From contig JAIXUN010000002.1 of the NCBI GenBank assembly GCA_027483535.1, positions 124,001-188,000 of the forward strand: a stretch of DNA of 64,000 bases, given 5' to 3'. The notes beneath the pieces are model-generated. The model saw only the letters and a list, made by a program, of their open reading frames with translations. It was not told the origin of the DNA and did no database searches. Below are positions 5,081 through 12,491 of this stretch, piece after piece. The translations under genes and the position numbers were made by a program. This DNA comes from a bacterium (GTDB taxonomy: Bacteria > Armatimonadota > Fimbriimonadia > Fimbriimonadales > Fimbriimonadaceae). Positions within the stretch are counted from its first letter, which is position 1. Every line of letters begins with the position of its first letter.

Positions 5081-5878
5081 TTATTTAATCCTCCGGAACG
5101 GTTCCAGCATCTGTTTGTTGAACGCCCATCCGCGCTTTTTCACCGCTGCGTACTGCGCTGCAGTGGGTTCGGGTGGAGTAAAGCCCTTTTTGCGCAGATA
5201 GTTCGCCCAAGATAACGTCTCGGCACTTGTCTTGTAAGACGGGTTTACTAACTTCCTAGAGTAATCCCGTAGTTTCAAAGAGATCATCGCCTTCAGTCGC
5301 CGCTGCTCCCAAAGGCGGATATTCTTTTGCTCTTCCTTGTTGGGAATGCGATTCCGAACCGCCCACATTTCCAGCGCTATCGGGTGAGAATTGGTGAGCT
5401 TGTCGACCGCCCGCAACGATGCATCTACGTCCTTGGGGTACTTGCCATACACGTGCGAGGTGAGGGCGAAGCGATAGTGGGCCAGAAAGTCATGGGGATA
5501 CGCCTTCACCATCTGAGCGGCTCTTCCAAGAGAATCTCCAGGTTCGTTCATGAAGAATCGGCACCGTAGCAATTCCGCTTGCCCCCTTGTGGCGGGTGGG
5601 ACGCCTGGCTGATGTCGAAGTGACTGCTTTAAGTTCTCGATCAGTGAACTCTTGTCTTCTGCGATCGAAACGTACGTCAGAAGAAGCCCGACCTCCGACC
5701 AAGCGAGAGGGCTTCGCTCGGCGTCAATGATCCGCCGGGCTTCTTGGAGGCTGTCCTTTTGTAAGAAGACCCGCGCAAGCTCCGATCGAACTCGGCGCAC
5801 CGTGTCCTCTTCGACCTGCGTGAGGGCCCTATCTTGAGTGAGATGAACGAGCCCAAAAAGGGCACAAGAAACTATCAT
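5081..5878 (-). CDS. Uncharacterised paralog A with C-terminal AVKKRGWAFNKQML signature
   Basis: 265 aa with a short hydrophobic N-terminus (signal or anchor) and an otherwise helical body. Shared with 5949-6776 and 6937-7722 are three blocks in the same order: a YPHDF-type block (AYPHDFLAHYRF), a LTxxHPxxL block (LTNSHPIALEMW), and the C-terminal signature (PPEPTAAQYAAVKKRGW, then FNKQMLEPFRR). No catalytic motif is visible. The body could be a TPR-like helical repeat, which is inference. It is tightly coupled to the downstream membrane protein gene (3 nt). Confidence 0.72.
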   Translation of the reverse strand: MIVSCALFGLVHLTQDRALTQVEEDTVRRVRSELARVFLQKDSLQEARRIIDAERSPLAWSEVGLLLTYVSIAEDKSSLIENLKQSLRHQPGVPPATRGQAELLRCRFFMNEPGDSLGRAAQMVKAYPHDFLAHYRFALTSHVYGKYPKDVDASLRAVDKLTNSHPIALEMWAVRNRIPNKEEQKNIRLWEQRRLKAMISLKLRDYSRKLVNPSYKTSAETLSWANYLRKKGFTPPEPTAAQYAAVKKRGWAFNKQMLEPFRRIK

Positions 5879-5948
5879 CGGCTTGTTTGTCTGGTAACGG
5901 AGTTGGCTGCCATCCGAGATGTAGAACGGCCCTAGTGATCAGGGGGCG

Positions 5949-6776
5949 CTAATTGACTCTCCTAAACGGTTCGATCATCTGTGGAGTGAATCCCCATCCC
6001 CGGCGCTTGACCGCCAGATATTCGCTCGCGCTGGGTTCGGTGGGGGCCACGTTTCTCCCCCTCAGCCAGTTTGTGATGTACGTGACGGAATCGCTCATGT
6101 CGCGGCCTCGCCCTGTGTGTTTGCGAGCGTATTCGTAAAGCTTCAAACCGTGGAGCGCCTTCAGTTCCGATTCAATCTGTTCTGATTCCGGATTGGCGAA
6201 TTCTTCAAAACGGGCTCGATACATGACGGCTAATGGATGCTTGTCGGTCAGCACCTCGGCGCGTATCATCGCCTGTTTCGCACGCTCTGGGGCAGGGGTT
6301 CCAAGTCCGTAGCCCTGAGCAACAAATAGCCACTGCGCCGCAAAGTCGTGCGGATAAGTTTCGGCGAGCCTGATGTTTATGTATCCCTCTGTTCTGAAGT
6401 CTCCACCGCTTCGATTCGGAGACAAGTTAGCCCGGAGCGCGGTCAAGATCACTCGCGATCGCTCGGTGGAGCCTTCGTGATACTGCCTCGCTACTAGTGG
6501 CTCCAAAAGCTCCCCGGGGTTGTTTCGAAAGCCGACTGTTGCCATCAGCAGCAAATACTCGGCGGCGACGTCTTCTCGGTTGGTCCGGTTCAAGCGCTCC
6601 AGAAGTAGCTGAGGGGCGTCTTCCCGGCTCATGATCTGCCCGTACGCGGTCCGGATCTCCTGAACACTCGTCGCCCCTGCCTGTCGAAAGCCCACCACCG
6701 TACCAATGGCAACCACGCCCACCACCATCGCGATGGGAAGCGCTTCACGAAATCGAAAGGACGGGGTCGAGGGCAT
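5949..6776 (-). CDS. Uncharacterised paralog B, membrane-anchored
   Basis: 275 aa from ATG 6776; TTG at 6785 is an alternative. The N-terminus has a positively charged start and one hydrophobic helix (IAMVVGVVAIGTVVGF), so it is probably membrane-anchored with the body outside. It shares TYPHDFAAQWLF, LTDKHPLAVMYRARFE and the end block (TEPSASEYLAVKRRGWGF then QMIEPFRR) with its neighbours. It is the most diverged of the three. 70 nt separate it from paralog A and 160 nt from paralog C, enough for separate promoters. Confidence 0.72.
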   Translation of the reverse strand: MPSTPSFRFREALPIAMVVGVVAIGTVVGFRQAGATSVQEIRTAYGQIMSREDAPQLLLERLNRTNREDVAAEYLLLMATVGFRNNPGELLEPLVARQYHEGSTERSRVILTALRANLSPNRSGGDFRTEGYINIRLAETYPHDFAAQWLFVAQGYGLGTPAPERAKQAMIRAEVLTDKHPLAVMYRARFEEFANPESEQIESELKALHGLKLYEYARKHTGRGRDMSDSVTYITNWLRGRNVAPTEPSASEYLAVKRRGWGFTPQMIEPFRRVN

Positions 6777-6936
6777 AGGAATCAAAGGGAAACGCTTCTA
6801 TCACGTAGTATAAGACGTATGCCGATGAGAAAGGAGTATTAAAGATAGTCTTAACCGAAACGTGAACATTCTCGTTGCGCATGCAGGGTGACAAAACGAG
6901 GTCGGTTCTGCTCGCCGGTTTAGTCCTCCGAGACTT

Positions 6937-7722
6937 CTAATCCACCTTCTTGAAGGGCTCCAGCATTTGTTTGTTAAAGGCCCACCCGCGCTTCTTCACT
7001 GCAGCGTACTGCTCAGGCGTCGGCTCCGGTGGGGTGATACCCTTCTTCTTGAGAAAAGCTTCGAGCAGCTTGATCTCCTCATTCACTCTCTTTGCATCGC
7101 CGATCTGTAGCCTTGCCGATCGATACAACTTGTAGTAGACAAGTGCCTTTCCTAACCGGCCCTTATAGTTAGGGTCGTTGTCCGCAACGAAGTTTTCAAA
7201 AAGCGCACGTAGCGACAATGATAAAGGGTGGTTGTCGGTAAGCCTCTCGAGGACGGCTAGGGCCTGTCCTACTTCTTTCTCAATCTCCTCTTTGCCAAGA
7301 TTCAGAAAGATGAATCTAGCTTGAAATGCATAGTCCTCCGGATATCGATTCTTTAGTGTTCGAAAAAGTTTTCGATCAACCGAGGCATCATACGTCTGGA
7401 CAGCCAATACTCTTTCTCCTTTCTGATTGCTAAATCCCTTCGCTCTAAGTTGGTCCATCGTGGCAGAAACATCGAAGGGCAAAGGAGTCGAGGTGAGAAG
7501 TAACAGAAGCTCTGACCTCGCATGAATGTTGCCCGAGTCAACAACGGTCTGCATGTACTCCTTCAGGCGCTTGGGGTTCACATACCTCGTGGAGAATTCA
7601 AGTCGAGCCTGCTTGATTGCAAAACCGGGGTCGTTTTGCTGCCCTGCGGTGGATGTGAGTGTGAGCGCCTGAAGAAATCCAAGGGTGACTAATCCGCGCC
7701 TTAGAGATTGATAATTCTTCAT
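6937..7722 (-). CDS. Uncharacterised paralog C, secreted
   Basis: 261 aa with a classical signal peptide (basic start, hydrophobic core to about residue 26, then TAGQQND). It carries RYPEDYAFQARF, LTDNHPLSLSLRALFE and the end block PPEPTPEQYAAVKKRGW plus FNKQMLEPFKK, almost identical to paralog A at protein and DNA level in the last 35 codons. It starts 3 nt after the stop of the 49-codon gene at 7726-7875, with AAGGGA upstream, so the two are translationally coupled. No enzymatic motif was seen. Confidence 0.75.
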   Translation of the reverse strand: MKNYQSLRRGLVTLGFLQALTLTSTAGQQNDPGFAIKQARLEFSTRYVNPKRLKEYMQTVVDSGNIHARSELLLLLTSTPLPFDVSATMDQLRAKGFSNQKGERVLAVQTYDASVDRKLFRTLKNRYPEDYAFQARFIFLNLGKEEIEKEVGQALAVLERLTDNHPLSLSLRALFENFVADNDPNYKGRLGKALVYYKLYRSARLQIGDAKRVNEEIKLLEAFLKKKGITPPEPTPEQYAAVKKRGWAFNKQMLEPFKKVD

Positions 7723-7970: not shown

Positions 7971-8429
7971 GTGACCGCGACGAAACCGTCCCCGCCTGAT
8001 ACAATGCCTCCCATGGACATGCCTCCCATGGATACGCCTCGCGGGCCCAGCGTTGGATCTGCCTCTGCGACGTCGCAGGCAGGCGTACCGGAAACGATTG
8101 CGCACGAGACCGTTGCCCACCTCACGCAGCGGTTGATGAAACGACAAGTGAAGTTAAGCCTTGCCGTTGGGGCGGTGTTCGTGATTCTGCTGGTGGGTCT
8201 CCCGCTGCTGAACCAATTTGCAGTTCCAACCATGGCGACCCGCGTCGGACCCTTCACCATCACCTGGCTCATCCTGGCGATCTTGTTTTATCCGCTCACC
8301 TGGGCCCTCTCCTGGTGGTTTGTGAAGGGCTCGGAGGATATCGAGGAAGCGATTGTGACCGAAGAGCGGGCAAGGATCGCTGCCGACCAAAACGGTCGCC
8401 CCATCGACACCAACGGAGAGGTTCGCTAA
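7971..8429 (+). CDS. DUF485-family membrane protein, symporter partner
   Basis: 152 aa from GTG 7971; ATG 8004 is an alternative, and neither start has a strong ribosome site. The Met/Pro-rich N-terminal stretch contains a small internal repeat (MPPMDMPPMD). Two membrane helices (about 58-80 and 92-115) and a WWFVKGSEDIEE tail match the YjcH/DUF485 type, typically encoded just before ActP-like sodium:solute symporters. The symporter gene starts 3 nt downstream, confirming the pairing. Confidence 0.8.
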   Translation: MTATKPSPPDTMPPMDMPPMDTPRGPSVGSASATSQAGVPETIAHETVAHLTQRLMKRQVKLSLAVGAVFVILLVGLPLLNQFAVPTMATRVGPFTITWLILAILFYPLTWALSWWFVKGSEDIEEAIVTEERARIAADQNGRPIDTNGEVR

Positions 8430-8432
8430 CCC

Positions 8433-10391
8433 ATGGATACCAACTCGTTAGTCACATTTCTGTTTGTTATTGCGGTGACGGTGGCAACCGTCTGGCTCGG
8501 GGTTCGAGCCACGAAAGGGTCGAAGTCGACAGGCGATTTCTTCGTCGCGGGTCGATCCGTCAACGTCTTTTGGAACGCCTCCGCGATCTCTGGCGAGTAC
8601 CTCAGCGCGGCGAGTTTCATGGGCATTGCGGGCCTGGTGATGAAGAACGGCTACGACGCCCTTTGGTATCCGGTTGGGTACGCCGCGGGGTATCTGTTCT
8701 TGCTGCTGTTCATCGCCGGACCCCTGCGCAGATTCGGGGCCTACACCATTCCCGACTTCGCCGAGGGCCGCTTCGATAGTCCGGCGTTTCGAAAGATCGC
8801 GGTTTCGTTTGTCCTCTTCATTGGGTTCTTCTACACGATGCCCCAAATGAAAGGGGCGGGCATCACCATGGCGTCCATTCTCAATTGGCCGTACGCGGTG
8901 GGGATTCTCGTCGTCGGCGCGGTGATCACGTTCAACGTCGCGGTGGGCGGCATGAAGGGAATCACGCTGGTGCAGGCCTTCCAGTACTGGGTGAAGGTGT
9001 TCGCCATTGCGGTGCCATTCTTTGTGGTGTCGGCGATGATCCAGGGGAACACCCAGGCAATGGCTCACGCCGCAGAAGGGACCAAACCGCCGATGGTTGC
9101 CACCGATACGGTGGTCTCTTTGAAAGGAAAAACTGCCGCACCGAATAATGCTCTGTCTCTGCCCGTCGGCTCGATCGTGCTCACGTTCGAGACGGATACG
9201 GAGATCGGCAAGGTCGGTCCGGCTAAGAAGGGAACCGAGTTTGCCCCCATTCAGCCCGCCGACCCGAAAGGCACCGTCTTGCCAACCGATGCTGTCTCGT
9301 TCCCTTGGAAGATTCAAAAGGGTCAAAGCGTTCAGGTTCCCCTTGCGGTGGAGATGGTGAACGGCGAGCCAAGCGGCAAACCCGTGGCGCTCAAACTCGA
9401 GTTCGATAAACCCGCGAAGTTCAAGATCAGCGACGACCAAGGTCAAGCGGTGGCGGCTCCCAACGCGCCGAAAGATGCGGATTGGCTTAACCCGTTTGGA
9501 CCCATGACCGCCAAGCACGGATTCCCGCTGCTCACCACCTACTCGCTCATCATTGCGTTGGTATGCGGAACGGCGGGTCTGCCCCACATTCTGGTTCGGT
9601 TCTATACCAATCCAGATGGCAAATCGGCGAAGCGAACCACTTTGCTGGTGATGATCTTCCTGGGTGTGTTCTATGTGTTCACGCCTATGTGGGGAGCCAT
9701 TGGCAGATACACCATGCCCGCTCTCTACGCAGGCAACGTCACCGACAGCGTGGTCATCAAGCTACCGACCATGGTGGACAACCCGATGCTCGGGGCGATC
9801 TTGAGCGGTGTCACCAGTGCGGGTGCGTTCGCGGCGTTCATGTCCACCTTTTCAGGACTGCTGGTGAGCATGAGCAGCGCGTTCGCTCACGACATCTACG
9901 GCAAGATTCTGCGACCCGAGGCCTCCACCGAATCACGACTCAAAGCGTTCAAGGTGGCGGCGGTGGTCGTCGGCGTTGTATCCATGGGACTCGGCCTATT
10001 GGTGGAAACGTTTGATATCGCGACCATGGTCGGCTGGGCGTTTGCCATCGGTGCGGCGTCTTACTTCCCGCTGTTGCTTTTAGGTAGCTGGTGGAAGGGG
10101 CTGACCGCTAAGGGTGCGGCTACGGGCATGCTGGTCGGCGGTCTCACTTCGCTTGCGGCGATCGTCACCACCATGCTGGTCGATCGAAAGGTGATTCAGC
10201 TCGAGCTCCCCGGCTTGGCTAAGGCGCTGATGGAGCAACCCGCCATTTGGGGTGTGCCGCTCTCCATGGTGCTCATGTTCGTGGTGAGCAAAGCCACCGC
10301 GGGTGATGTGCCGAAGGATATCGACTGGAAGATGCTGCGGCTTCACGCTCCCGAGGCGCTGGGCTACAGCAAGAACTACGTCGATCACTAG
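8433..10391 (+). CDS. Sodium:solute symporter (ActP-like, monocarboxylate type) with large loop insert
   Basis: 652 aa. The SSS-family core is clear: STGDFFVAGRSVNVFWNASA near the N-terminus, then SGEYLSAASFMG, and GTAGLPHILVRFYTNPDGKS after the insert, with about 13 membrane helices. This subfamily imports acetate or related carboxylates with Na+. It differs from E. coli ActP by a soluble segment at roughly residues 206-350, predicted outside, rich in beta-forming residues and charged (for example LTFETDTEIGKVGPAKKGTE). The frame stays open across it and composition does not change. The gene overlaps functionally with DUF485 at 7971. Confidence 0.87.
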   Translation: MDTNSLVTFLFVIAVTVATVWLGVRATKGSKSTGDFFVAGRSVNVFWNASAISGEYLSAASFMGIAGLVMKNGYDALWYPVGYAAGYLFLLLFIAGPLRRFGAYTIPDFAEGRFDSPAFRKIAVSFVLFIGFFYTMPQMKGAGITMASILNWPYAVGILVVGAVITFNVAVGGMKGITLVQAFQYWVKVFAIAVPFFVVSAMIQGNTQAMAHAAEGTKPPMVATDTVVSLKGKTAAPNNALSLPVGSIVLTFETDTEIGKVGPAKKGTEFAPIQPADPKGTVLPTDAVSFPWKIQKGQSVQVPLAVEMVNGEPSGKPVALKLEFDKPAKFKISDDQGQAVAAPNAPKDADWLNPFGPMTAKHGFPLLTTYSLIIALVCGTAGLPHILVRFYTNPDGKSAKRTTLLVMIFLGVFYVFTPMWGAIGRYTMPALYAGNVTDSVVIKLPTMVDNPMLGAILSGVTSAGAFAAFMSTFSGLLVSMSSAFAHDIYGKILRPEASTESRLKAFKVAAVVVGVVSMGLGLLVETFDIATMVGWAFAIGAASYFPLLLLGSWWKGLTAKGAATGMLVGGLTSLAAIVTTMLVDRKVIQLELPGLAKALMEQPAIWGVPLSMVLMFVVSKATAGDVPKDIDWKMLRLHAPEALGYSKNYVDH

Positions 10392-10415: not shown

Positions 10416-10448
10416 AAAGGGGCCGGCTTAATCGCCGACCCCTTCTTT
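10416..10448. terminator. Likely bidirectional terminator between symporter and Cys-rich gene
   Basis: A GC-rich hairpin (aaggggccggc, loop, gccgacccctt; one G-U type mismatch) sits between the convergent symporter (stop 10391) and the micro-protein gene ending at 10461. A T-rich stretch follows on the plus strand. Confidence 0.6.
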
Positions 10449-10460
10449 GTTGCAGTTACG

Positions 10461-10691
10461 CTATTCGCAGGCGCTGCACTTGTCGTAATAGAACGAGACT
10501 CCGCCGTTACCCGAGCACGCCGCCGAGCAGAGGGTTCCGTTGTAGTCGGACCCGTCGTTACAGCGGGCGCATGCCACTGGACAATCGGAATCGTCGCTTC
10601 CGCCACCGGGCGAACAGCCAGGTGCTTCGCCGCAACCGATGGTGATGATATAGGCCGAGATCAACCCGGCAAGGACGTAGATTTTCCTCAT
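10461..10691 (-). CDS. Cys-rich secreted micro-protein 1
   Basis: 76 aa. A signal peptide (MRKIYVLAGLISAYIITIG) is followed at once by Cys, so it may be a lipoprotein, although position -3 is not ideal. The mature part is small, acidic and Cys-rich: CPVACARCNDGSDY, then LCSAACSGNGGVSFYYDKC and CE at the end. The Cys pattern CxxC...CSxxC...CxxC suits disulfides or a small metal site. AGGGAG lies upstream of the ATG. It is a duplicate of the gene at 10833-11042. No modification or transport enzyme is adjacent. Family unknown. Confidence 0.75.
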   Translation of the reverse strand: MRKIYVLAGLISAYIITIGCGEAPGCSPGGGSDDSDCPVACARCNDGSDYNGTLCSAACSGNGGVSFYYDKCSACE

Positions 10692-10766
10692 TTTTTCTCC
10701 CTGAACCTCGCCGTTGTGACGGGTTCGTGCTTGGAACGGGTCGGGAGAGTGCGGGTTTCGTGGCCG

Positions 10767-10816
10767 AAAAAAGGAAAGGGTCGGAAGTCCCTTTCAGAAC
10801 TTCCGACCCTTTCCTT
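10767..10816 (-). terminator. Strong intrinsic terminator after Cys-rich gene 2
   Basis: A perfect 18-bp stem (10771-10788 pairing with 10799-10816) with a 10-nt loop. On the minus strand it is followed by six T (A-run 10767-10772). It lies 17 nt beyond the stop codon at 10833, so the two micro-protein genes are probably transcribed separately. Confidence 0.92.
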
Positions 10817-10832
10817 CACGTTTTCTGGCAGA

Positions 10833-11042
10833 TTACTCGGCGCAGAAATCGCACTTGTCGTAATAGAACGAAACGCCGCCGTTGCCGCTACAAGCGGAAG
10901 AGCACAGCGATCCTTCGTAGTCGGAACCGTCGTTGCAGCGAGCGCATCGCGAATCTGTGTCGGATCCCTGATCACAACCCTCGTTCCCCGCGAGGATCAT
11001 GAACGAGCCGATAAGCGCGGCCAAAATGTAAACCTTTCTCAT
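10833..11042 (-). CDS. Cys-rich secreted micro-protein 2
   Basis: 69 aa from ATG 11042, chosen because GGAGGG sits ideally upstream; the longer frame has no ribosome site. The signal peptide MRKVYILAALIGSFMILAG is followed by NEGC. The mature region repeats the core of its neighbour: CARCNDGSDYEGSLC, SSACSGNGGVSFYYDKC, then FCAE. Identity in the last 35 residues is high in protein and DNA, so this is a recent tandem duplication. It is divergent from the haloperoxidase-like gene at 11166. Confidence 0.77.
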   Translation of the reverse strand: MRKVYILAALIGSFMILAGNEGCDQGSDTDSRCARCNDGSDYEGSLCSSACSGNGGVSFYYDKCDFCAE

Positions 11043-11165
11043 ATTTCCCTCCACCCCAATTTCTTGGTGAATACAAAAACTTAGCATCTTCCGCTTTTCG
11101 TGTCAACGCAAAGCCCACGGCGAGTTCGATCTGCATTTGGCACGAATCCTGCAGCCTCCCTTTGC

Positions 11166-12491
11166 ATGAGCGGTTTCGCGAATGCTTTTTGGTATCGAAT
11201 TGGGCTTGGGGGCCTTGTGATGGGGGCCATCGTCACGTCTGCAGTTGCTTCCGACGAGGCGGTCTTCTGGAATCAGGTGGCACTGGAGACCATCAAGTCA
11301 ACCAATACTGCGCCCCCCATGGCGGCAAGAAACCTTGCCATTGCATCGATTGCCTCTTATGATGCGGTGAATTCCATCGAGCGAATCGGAAAGGCGTACG
11401 TTTTCAAAGACAACTACTCCGGAGCCGATGCACGAGCCGCCGTTGCCGAGGCGAACTACCGAACTCTGCGGACCCTTTTCCCCACCCGGGCAACTCAGCT
11501 CAGCCAGATCTATCAGCAGCGTCTCGACCTGCTCGGTTCGGGCACATCTATCGAACAAGGTCTAGAAGCGGGAAGACGCTCGGCCGCAGCCATTTTGAAC
11601 CGCCGAGACAATGACGGTGCGTATGTGAACCTGGGTCCGTACATGGGCTCGAACGATCCCGGGAAGTGGCGCCCAACGGATAACGGTCTCCCTGGCGCGC
11701 TGCCTCATTGGCGAGACGTTGCCACGTTTTCTATGAATTCGAATCGCCAATTTGATGGCGGAACGGCACCTATCCTAAGCAGCGCGAAGTACGCCGAGTC
11801 CCTGAGCGAGGTGAAGCTCCTCGGATCGGCCACGAGCGTTCTTCGAACCGCCGATCAGACGGAAACGGCGTACTTCTGGAGAGCGGGCGGGAACAGCTAC
11901 ACCCCTCCCGGTCAGTGGAATCAGGTCGCTCAGACCATCGGGCAGAATCGGGGGAACACCCTCGCCGATAACGTCCGAATGTTTGGCGCGCTCAACACCT
12001 CGCTTGCAGATGCGGGCATCGCAGCGTGGGAGGTGAAGTACTCCGACGAGATGTGGCGACCCGAAACCGCGATTCGGCTTGCCGATCAAGACGGCAACGG
12101 TGGCACCGCACCCGATCTCACCTGGAATCCGCTGTTGCCAACTCCCAATCACCCTTCATGCGTGAGCGGGCACTCCACCTTCTCTGGCGCGGCGGCGGCG
12201 AGCCTTGCCGCGTTGTACGGCGACAATCAGACGTTCTCGTTTACAGACGACACGTACGGCATCACCCGGCACTTCAACTCGTTTAGCCAAGCGATGGACG
12301 AGGCAGGGATGAGCCGGATTTACGGCGGCATTCACTTTTCGTTTGATAACGAGATTGGAAAGTCTTTGGGTTGGCAGATTGGGAAGCACGTTGTGGCAAC
12401 AACGTTCCAAGCCGTCCCAGAACCGATCACGATTCTTGGGCTAGGCTTGGCGACGGCAGGCGTTATCTCTCGTCGTCGCCGAAAGCGGTAG
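11166..12491 (+). CDS. Vanadium-haloperoxidase/PAP2-like protein with PEP-CTERM anchor
   Basis: 441 aa from ATG 11166; GTG 11100 is an alternative, and neither has a clear ribosome site. A signal peptide ends near VTSAVAS. Active-site blocks of the vanadium chloroperoxidase/acid phosphatase superfamily are in order: KYSDEMWRPETAIRL (Lys and Arg), PSCVSGHSTFSG (Ser-Gly-His) and SRIYGGIHFSFDNEIG (Arg and His). The C-terminus VPEPITILGLGLATAGVISR plus an Arg-rich tail is a PEP-CTERM sorting signal, removed by an exosortase encoded elsewhere. It is likely an envelope enzyme, either a phosphatase or a haloperoxidase. Confidence 0.88.
   Translation: MSGFANAFWYRIGLGGLVMGAIVTSAVASDEAVFWNQVALETIKSTNTAPPMAARNLAIASIASYDAVNSIERIGKAYVFKDNYSGADARAAVAEANYRTLRTLFPTRATQLSQIYQQRLDLLGSGTSIEQGLEAGRRSAAAILNRRDNDGAYVNLGPYMGSNDPGKWRPTDNGLPGALPHWRDVATFSMNSNRQFDGGTAPILSSAKYAESLSEVKLLGSATSVLRTADQTETAYFWRAGGNSYTPPGQWNQVAQTIGQNRGNTLADNVRMFGALNTSLADAGIAAWEVKYSDEMWRPETAIRLADQDGNGGTAPDLTWNPLLPTPNHPSCVSGHSTFSGAAAASLAALYGDNQTFSFTDDTYGITRHFNSFSQAMDEAGMSRIYGGIHFSFDNEIGKSLGWQIGKHVVATTFQAVPEPITILGLGLATAGVISRRRRKR

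Follow-up and report, generated by a model that had tools for sequence, protein, structure and literature searches.

Two short open reading frames lie next to each other on the minus strand of a 64,000-nucleotide stretch of a Fimbriimonadaceae genome (contig JAIXUN010000002.1, positions 124,001 to 188,000; hereafter the window), and both encode small, cysteine-rich products. The questions raised by this locus are whether the two are real genes, where their products would act, and whether these products belong to any known family. The earlier note on this DNA had described them as duplicated, exported mini-proteins stabilised by disulfides or metal, and had implied that no known family matches them. 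The features of the locus are as follows.

10419 to 10442, no strand assigned: hairpin with a GC-rich stem of 9 bp, in the interval that separates P0001 from the convergent symporter gene (folding z -6.3)
10461 to 10691, minus strand: P0001 gene, 76 aa; predicted signal peptide with a PROSITE-type lipobox (LISAYIITIG-C20), linker, and DUF3761-like cysteine core at residues 41-75
10498 to 10562, minus strand: P0001 core motif DNA, C-x-DG-x7-C-x3-C-S-x2-GG-V, from a pattern scan
10772 to 10815, minus strand: intrinsic terminator, 20-bp stem followed by TTTTTTC, after P0002 and before P0001 (terminator scan and folding z -8.0)
10833 to 11042, minus strand: P0002 gene, 69 aa; predicted signal peptide without a lipobox (..MILAG-NEGC), linker, and DUF3761-like cysteine core at residues 33-67
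10873 to 10937, minus strand: P0002 core motif DNA, C-x-DG-x7-C-x3-C-S-x2-GG-V, from a pattern scan
11078 to 11106, minus strand: promoter-like site before P0002, TTGACA (11106-11101), 17-nt spacer ending in TGC, then TAAGTT (consensus match by eye only)

The two adjacent reading frames of 69 and 76 aa were confirmed at these positions, and the strings that they had been reported to share, CARCNDGSDYxGxLCSxAC and GNGGVSFYYDKCxxC, are exact in both proteins. P0001 and P0002 are 66% identical overall, and their six-cysteine cores, which run from CARC to the last CxxC, are almost the same. Across 68 aligned codons the genes differ at 76 nucleotides (20, 17, and 39 at codon positions 1, 2, and 3, respectively), with a dN of 0.34, a dS of ~2.1, which is near saturation, and a dN/dS of ~0.16. 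Given the excess of third-position changes and the values of dN and dS, the two code for proteins, go back to an old duplication, and have been under purifying selection; a chance pair of ORFs is ruled out. P0001 and P0002 are real genes, and the proposed duplication is supported; judged by a dS of ~2, the copies are old and do not represent a recent dosage duplication. A scan for the three-cysteine core pattern gave two occurrences in the window and none in 100 shuffles. Horizontal insertion of the pair was rejected on base composition, the GC content (0.53-0.59) being similar to that of the surroundings.

Shine-Dalgarno-like GGAGG and GGGAG sequences lie upstream of the two ATGs, and these purine-rich stretches bear out the earlier description of good ribosome sites ahead of both start codons. 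The strong terminator described after P0002 is real. Since it stands between P0002 and P0001, P0002 probably has a transcript of its own, and the sequence suggests that transcription starts from the TTGACA-containing region near 11101; P0001 may be expressed by read-through or from a separate promoter. The promoter-like site found there by eye was not listed by the scan that listed the terminator, and its second hexamer matches the consensus at 3 of 6 positions. The hairpin 3' of P0001 is strong, has no clear T-tract on the P0001 strand (a weak one at best), and is absent from the terminator scan list, so the wording "probable" that had been applied to a terminator after this gene was fair; it is possible that the hairpin serves as a shared terminator for P0001 and the symporter gene.

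Both proteins begin with MRK followed by a hydrophobic stretch, and the claim that they are exported agrees with the export signals found in both sequences. P0001 passes the PROSITE-type lipobox rule, and P0002 fails it, with N at the position of the lipobox cysteine. P0001 is therefore predicted to be lipid-anchored at Cys20 and P0002 to be released; this split into an anchored and a free paralogue holds only if the lipobox has been read correctly. P0001 has eight cysteines besides that of the lipobox, six of them in the core (C41, C44, C55, C59, C72, and C75). P0002 has seven in its mature part, and given this odd number they could not all be paired within one chain; at least one would be free, bridging two chains, or metal-binding. 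Scanning of the genes from 4.6 to 15.5 kb of the window revealed no peptide-modifying enzyme, in line with the earlier note.

The implication that no known family matches the pair was not supported. When Pfam was scanned with the signal peptides removed, DUF3761 (PF12587) was the only family reported for either core up to an E-value of 10 (0.052 and 0.36). The scores, 12.9 bits for whole P0001 and 14.5 and 11.8 bits for the cores, lie below the gathering cut-off of 29. The spacing of the cores matches the DUF3761 motif C-x-DG-[ST]-x10-C-S-x-H-GG-[VI], which is carried by at least 120 viral stretches, and in the form C-x-D-G-[ST]-x10-C-S-x2-G-G-[VI] it is present in both cores. The cores aligned without gaps to 42 viral DUF3761 members, with C, DG, C, S, and GG invariant across the alignment. 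In a profile-profile comparison by HHalign, the two-sequence core matched 92 viral DUF3761 sequences with a probability of 89.6%, a P of 1.9e-6, and a score of 28.6, and matched eight DUF3761-like sequences that were not chosen by spacing with 94.6% and a P of 7e-8, these P-values being per comparison for a lead picked by scanning ~25,000 Pfam families. In 300 column shuffles for the 92-sequence comparison, half of them with the cysteines kept in place, the score was at most 17.1; for the eight sequences, 3 of which had been found with a profile (A3) that contained P0001 and P0002, 0 of 200 shuffles reached the score, so that none of the 500 shuffles did in the two tests combined. Profile A3 carried small typing errors in two rows; profile A4 and the 92-sequence viral set are exact. 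An HMM built from DUF3761 only ranked P0001 and P0002 first and second among 1,256 ORFs taken from all six frames of the window. At a profile-profile probability of 90-95%, the core thus matches the DUF3761 motif in divergent form.

The histidine of the DUF3761 HGG motif is Asn in both P0001 and P0002. No viral contig carried the Asn version of the motif, compared with at least 120 for the His version, and none carried the three-cysteine core pattern. Since the His-to-Asn change is found in both copies and the scores fall under the Pfam cut-off, P0001 and P0002 are classed, by sequence, as a divergent variant of DUF3761 and not as members. The extra cysteine at motif position +11 is also found in a protein of the same genus (genome G002, CNDGWLSHAANCQGQCSHHFGV) and in one from a more distant genome (G108, CNDGTLSYSNNCQGTCSHHGGV). 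On this likeness, the two DUF3761-like proteins are plausible relatives of the pair within the phylum.

The host genome contains exactly two copies, P0001 and P0002. Full-length homologues of the pair were found in none of 60 relatives, none was convincing in the 290 other genomes searched of the phylum, and none was present in contigs of 84,980 species (genome_contigs), in viral contigs, or in phages. A plasmid search with P0001 and P0002 gave matches at chance level only, and the defence libraries gave no match. The pair is absent from every other genome searched here. Four weak genome matches (G179, G036, G246, and G015) were judged to be chance after they had been read. A match to phrog_36135 (E 8.9e-4) came from the leader and not the core, and was dismissed as a leader artefact because it was gone once the signal peptide was removed.

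The genes on either side of the pair occur in relatives. Of the 19 other genomes of the genus, 15 have the symporter gene conserved; no relative of the pair lies in the 1.5 kb downstream of this gene, a stretch that varies between same-genus genomes. Relatives of the haloperoxidase-like gene occur in 7 of 20 same-genus genomes including its own, that is, in 6 of the 19 others, and co-conservation of this gene with the pair, raised in the earlier note, was refuted, as the 1.5-kb flanks in all 6 other carriers contain no Cys-rich small ORF. Given that both neighbours occur in relatives without the pair, the pair is not functionally tied by conservation to either of them.

Several genes of this genome were observed in passing. 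The product of the haloperoxidase-like gene (window 11166-12491, plus strand) would be an exported protein that resembles PAP2/vanadium haloperoxidases and carries a PEP-CTERM sorting signal at its C-terminus. At window 7971-10391 (plus strand), a DUF485 protein is followed by a sodium/solute symporter of the VC_2705 type; the family match of this symporter falls into two separate parts, which suggests that a large segment is inserted between helices. Three consecutive paralogues of 261-278 aa, 28-35% identical and with a conserved AxKKRGWxFxxQMxEPFRRx tail, lie at window 5081-7722 (minus strand); they gave at most one weak TPR match and otherwise no Pfam family. Elsewhere in the genome (C1:1203000-1207000; L102, 110-2406, plus strand), at least five small genes are arranged head to tail, and most of their products start with MTCPNCG, followed by a second C..C pair and then hydrophobic stretches.

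The AlphaFold model from the two-sequence alignment had a mean pLDDT of 44.5 and was too poor for use, while mature P0001 with a family alignment gave a mean pLDDT of 66.5, with a moderate-confidence core (blocks at 74-83) and two short strands. A Foldseek search of the viral library placed a DUF3761 protein model among the matches (1.3 A over 31 columns, E 0.72), a result that is partly circular, as the query was built with the family alignment.

These results were weighed against other readings of the pair. P0001 and P0002 may form an unrelated, lineage-specific (orphan) family of disulfide-rich secreted peptides, perhaps a small secreted antagonist or signal, that resembles DUF3761 through convergence on a short Cys/Gly motif. 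The lack of full-length homologues in the 290 other phylum genomes, genome_contigs, viral contigs, and phages, with plasmid matches at chance level only, would fit such a family, as would the sub-threshold DUF3761 scores and the replacement of the histidine by Asn. However, the gapless motif match lies well above shuffled controls with the cysteines in place, and the phylum has DUF3761-like proteins with an extra cysteine at the very same position; we consider an orphan family possible but rather unlikely. A species-specific pair derived from a phage-associated DUF3761 module that lost the histidine and gained disulfides, and whose lipid-anchored and released copies work as a surface receptor with a soluble partner in, for example, phage exclusion or self-recognition, appears quite improbable.

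A metal-binding mini-protein of the zinc-ribbon or DnaJ/anti-TRAP type, CxxC-x10-CxxxC, is suggested by the two CxxC pairs, by the odd number of cysteines in P0002, and by anti-TRAP as the best PDB sequence match (E 0.038), which has a similar cysteine spacing. The export signals, however, lower the likelihood of a structural zinc site, the second pair of this spacing is CxxxC and not CxxC, the pair was unlisted up to E 10 in a PF00684 search of the genome, and HHalign against DnaJ Cys-rich domains gave a probability of 3% that was matched by 34 of 100 shuffles. Kinship with DnaJ_CXXCXGXG (PF00684) or anti-TRAP was rejected, as neither CxxCxGxG repeats nor a profile match was found and the comparison did not stand out from the shuffle controls, and a metal-binding role of this type is unlikely. 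The case for a non-classical, bacterial Kazal-type protease inhibitor, like the leech tryptase inhibitor, comes from a Foldseek search in which 1an1_I was the sole PDB match and from the C-x10-C-x3-C spacing and DGxxY, which resemble LDTI by eye. That Foldseek match had an E of 9.7 and a probability of 0.02, no VIA-align Z reached 2, HHalign against a Kazal set gave a probability of 0.9% that was matched by 55 of 150 Cys-fixed shuffles, and no Kazal model was among the Pfam matches up to E 10. A profile match to CGSDGxTYxNxC with six cysteines was not found, Kazal identity was rejected, and we regard an inhibitor of this kind as very improbable.

The reading that we favour, with moderate confidence, is that P0001 and P0002 stem from an old duplication of an exported mini-protein with a cysteine-enriched, divergent DUF3761 motif as its core, and that this core would bind at the envelope, one copy being probably anchored and the other probably released. 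Both would be made as precursors with a signal peptide; a lipid would then probably anchor P0001 at Cys20, and P0002 would probably be set free. The fold of the core is probably a short knuckle resembling a beta-hairpin, fastened by the two cysteines that are constant in DUF3761 (C44 and C59 of P0001), and the further cysteines (C41, C55, C72, and C75) could provide extra disulfides or a metal site. The conserved face, DGS-DY and GNGGVSFYYDK, may bind something at the cell envelope, and a disulfide-stapled envelope binding module in anchored and released versions is our best guess. With Asn in place of the HGG histidine, the pair would lack any activity of DUF3761 proteins that depends on this residue. 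A duplicated variant that lacks the family histidine and has kept and added cysteines separates a structural role of the cysteines from a role of the histidine, and this separation could help to find what DUF3761 does.

DUF3761 is, to our knowledge, a very small, widespread domain without a known function. No consistent theme was seen among 89 neighbours of DUF3761 genes in viral contigs. In one viral contig (L094, 1196-1803, plus strand), the gene of a secreted DUF3761 protein overlaps an M15-peptidase-like gene, an arrangement that resembles the lysis-cassette position described in a Halomonas prophage, where DUF3761 receives a passing mention as lying between the holin and endolysin genes (PMC11131426).

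The likeness of the pair to the zinc domains of anti-TRAP and DnaJ consists of a CxxC-x10-Cx(2-3)C spacing and SGxG; unlike the pair, those domains are cytoplasmic, and their profile comparison with the pair fails. Cys-enriched DUF3761 variants in two viral contigs (L185, 318-461, plus strand; L200, 6037-6162, minus strand) share with the pair extra cysteines around the motif, e.g. ARCNDGTWSCSQNRSGTCSSHGGVRCWVC, but keep the histidine and carry the extra cysteines at other positions, indicating that extra cysteines near the motif arise elsewhere too. The G002 and G108 proteins have the CNDG-x7-C-x3-CS of the pair, that is, the cysteine at +11, and differ from it in being single-copy, in an apparent N-terminal membrane segment, in the retained histidine, in the lack of the C-terminal CxxC, and in their locus. 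Although the pair departs from DUF3761 in its Asn for the HGG histidine, its score under the cut-off, its tandem arrangement, and four additional core cysteines (CARC at the start, +11, and the C-terminal CxxC extension), it resembles the DUF3761 proteins of bacteria and phages in being small and exported or membrane-anchored, in carrying the motif at or near the C-terminus, and in the equal spacing of C, DG, CS, and GGV over ~30 residues.
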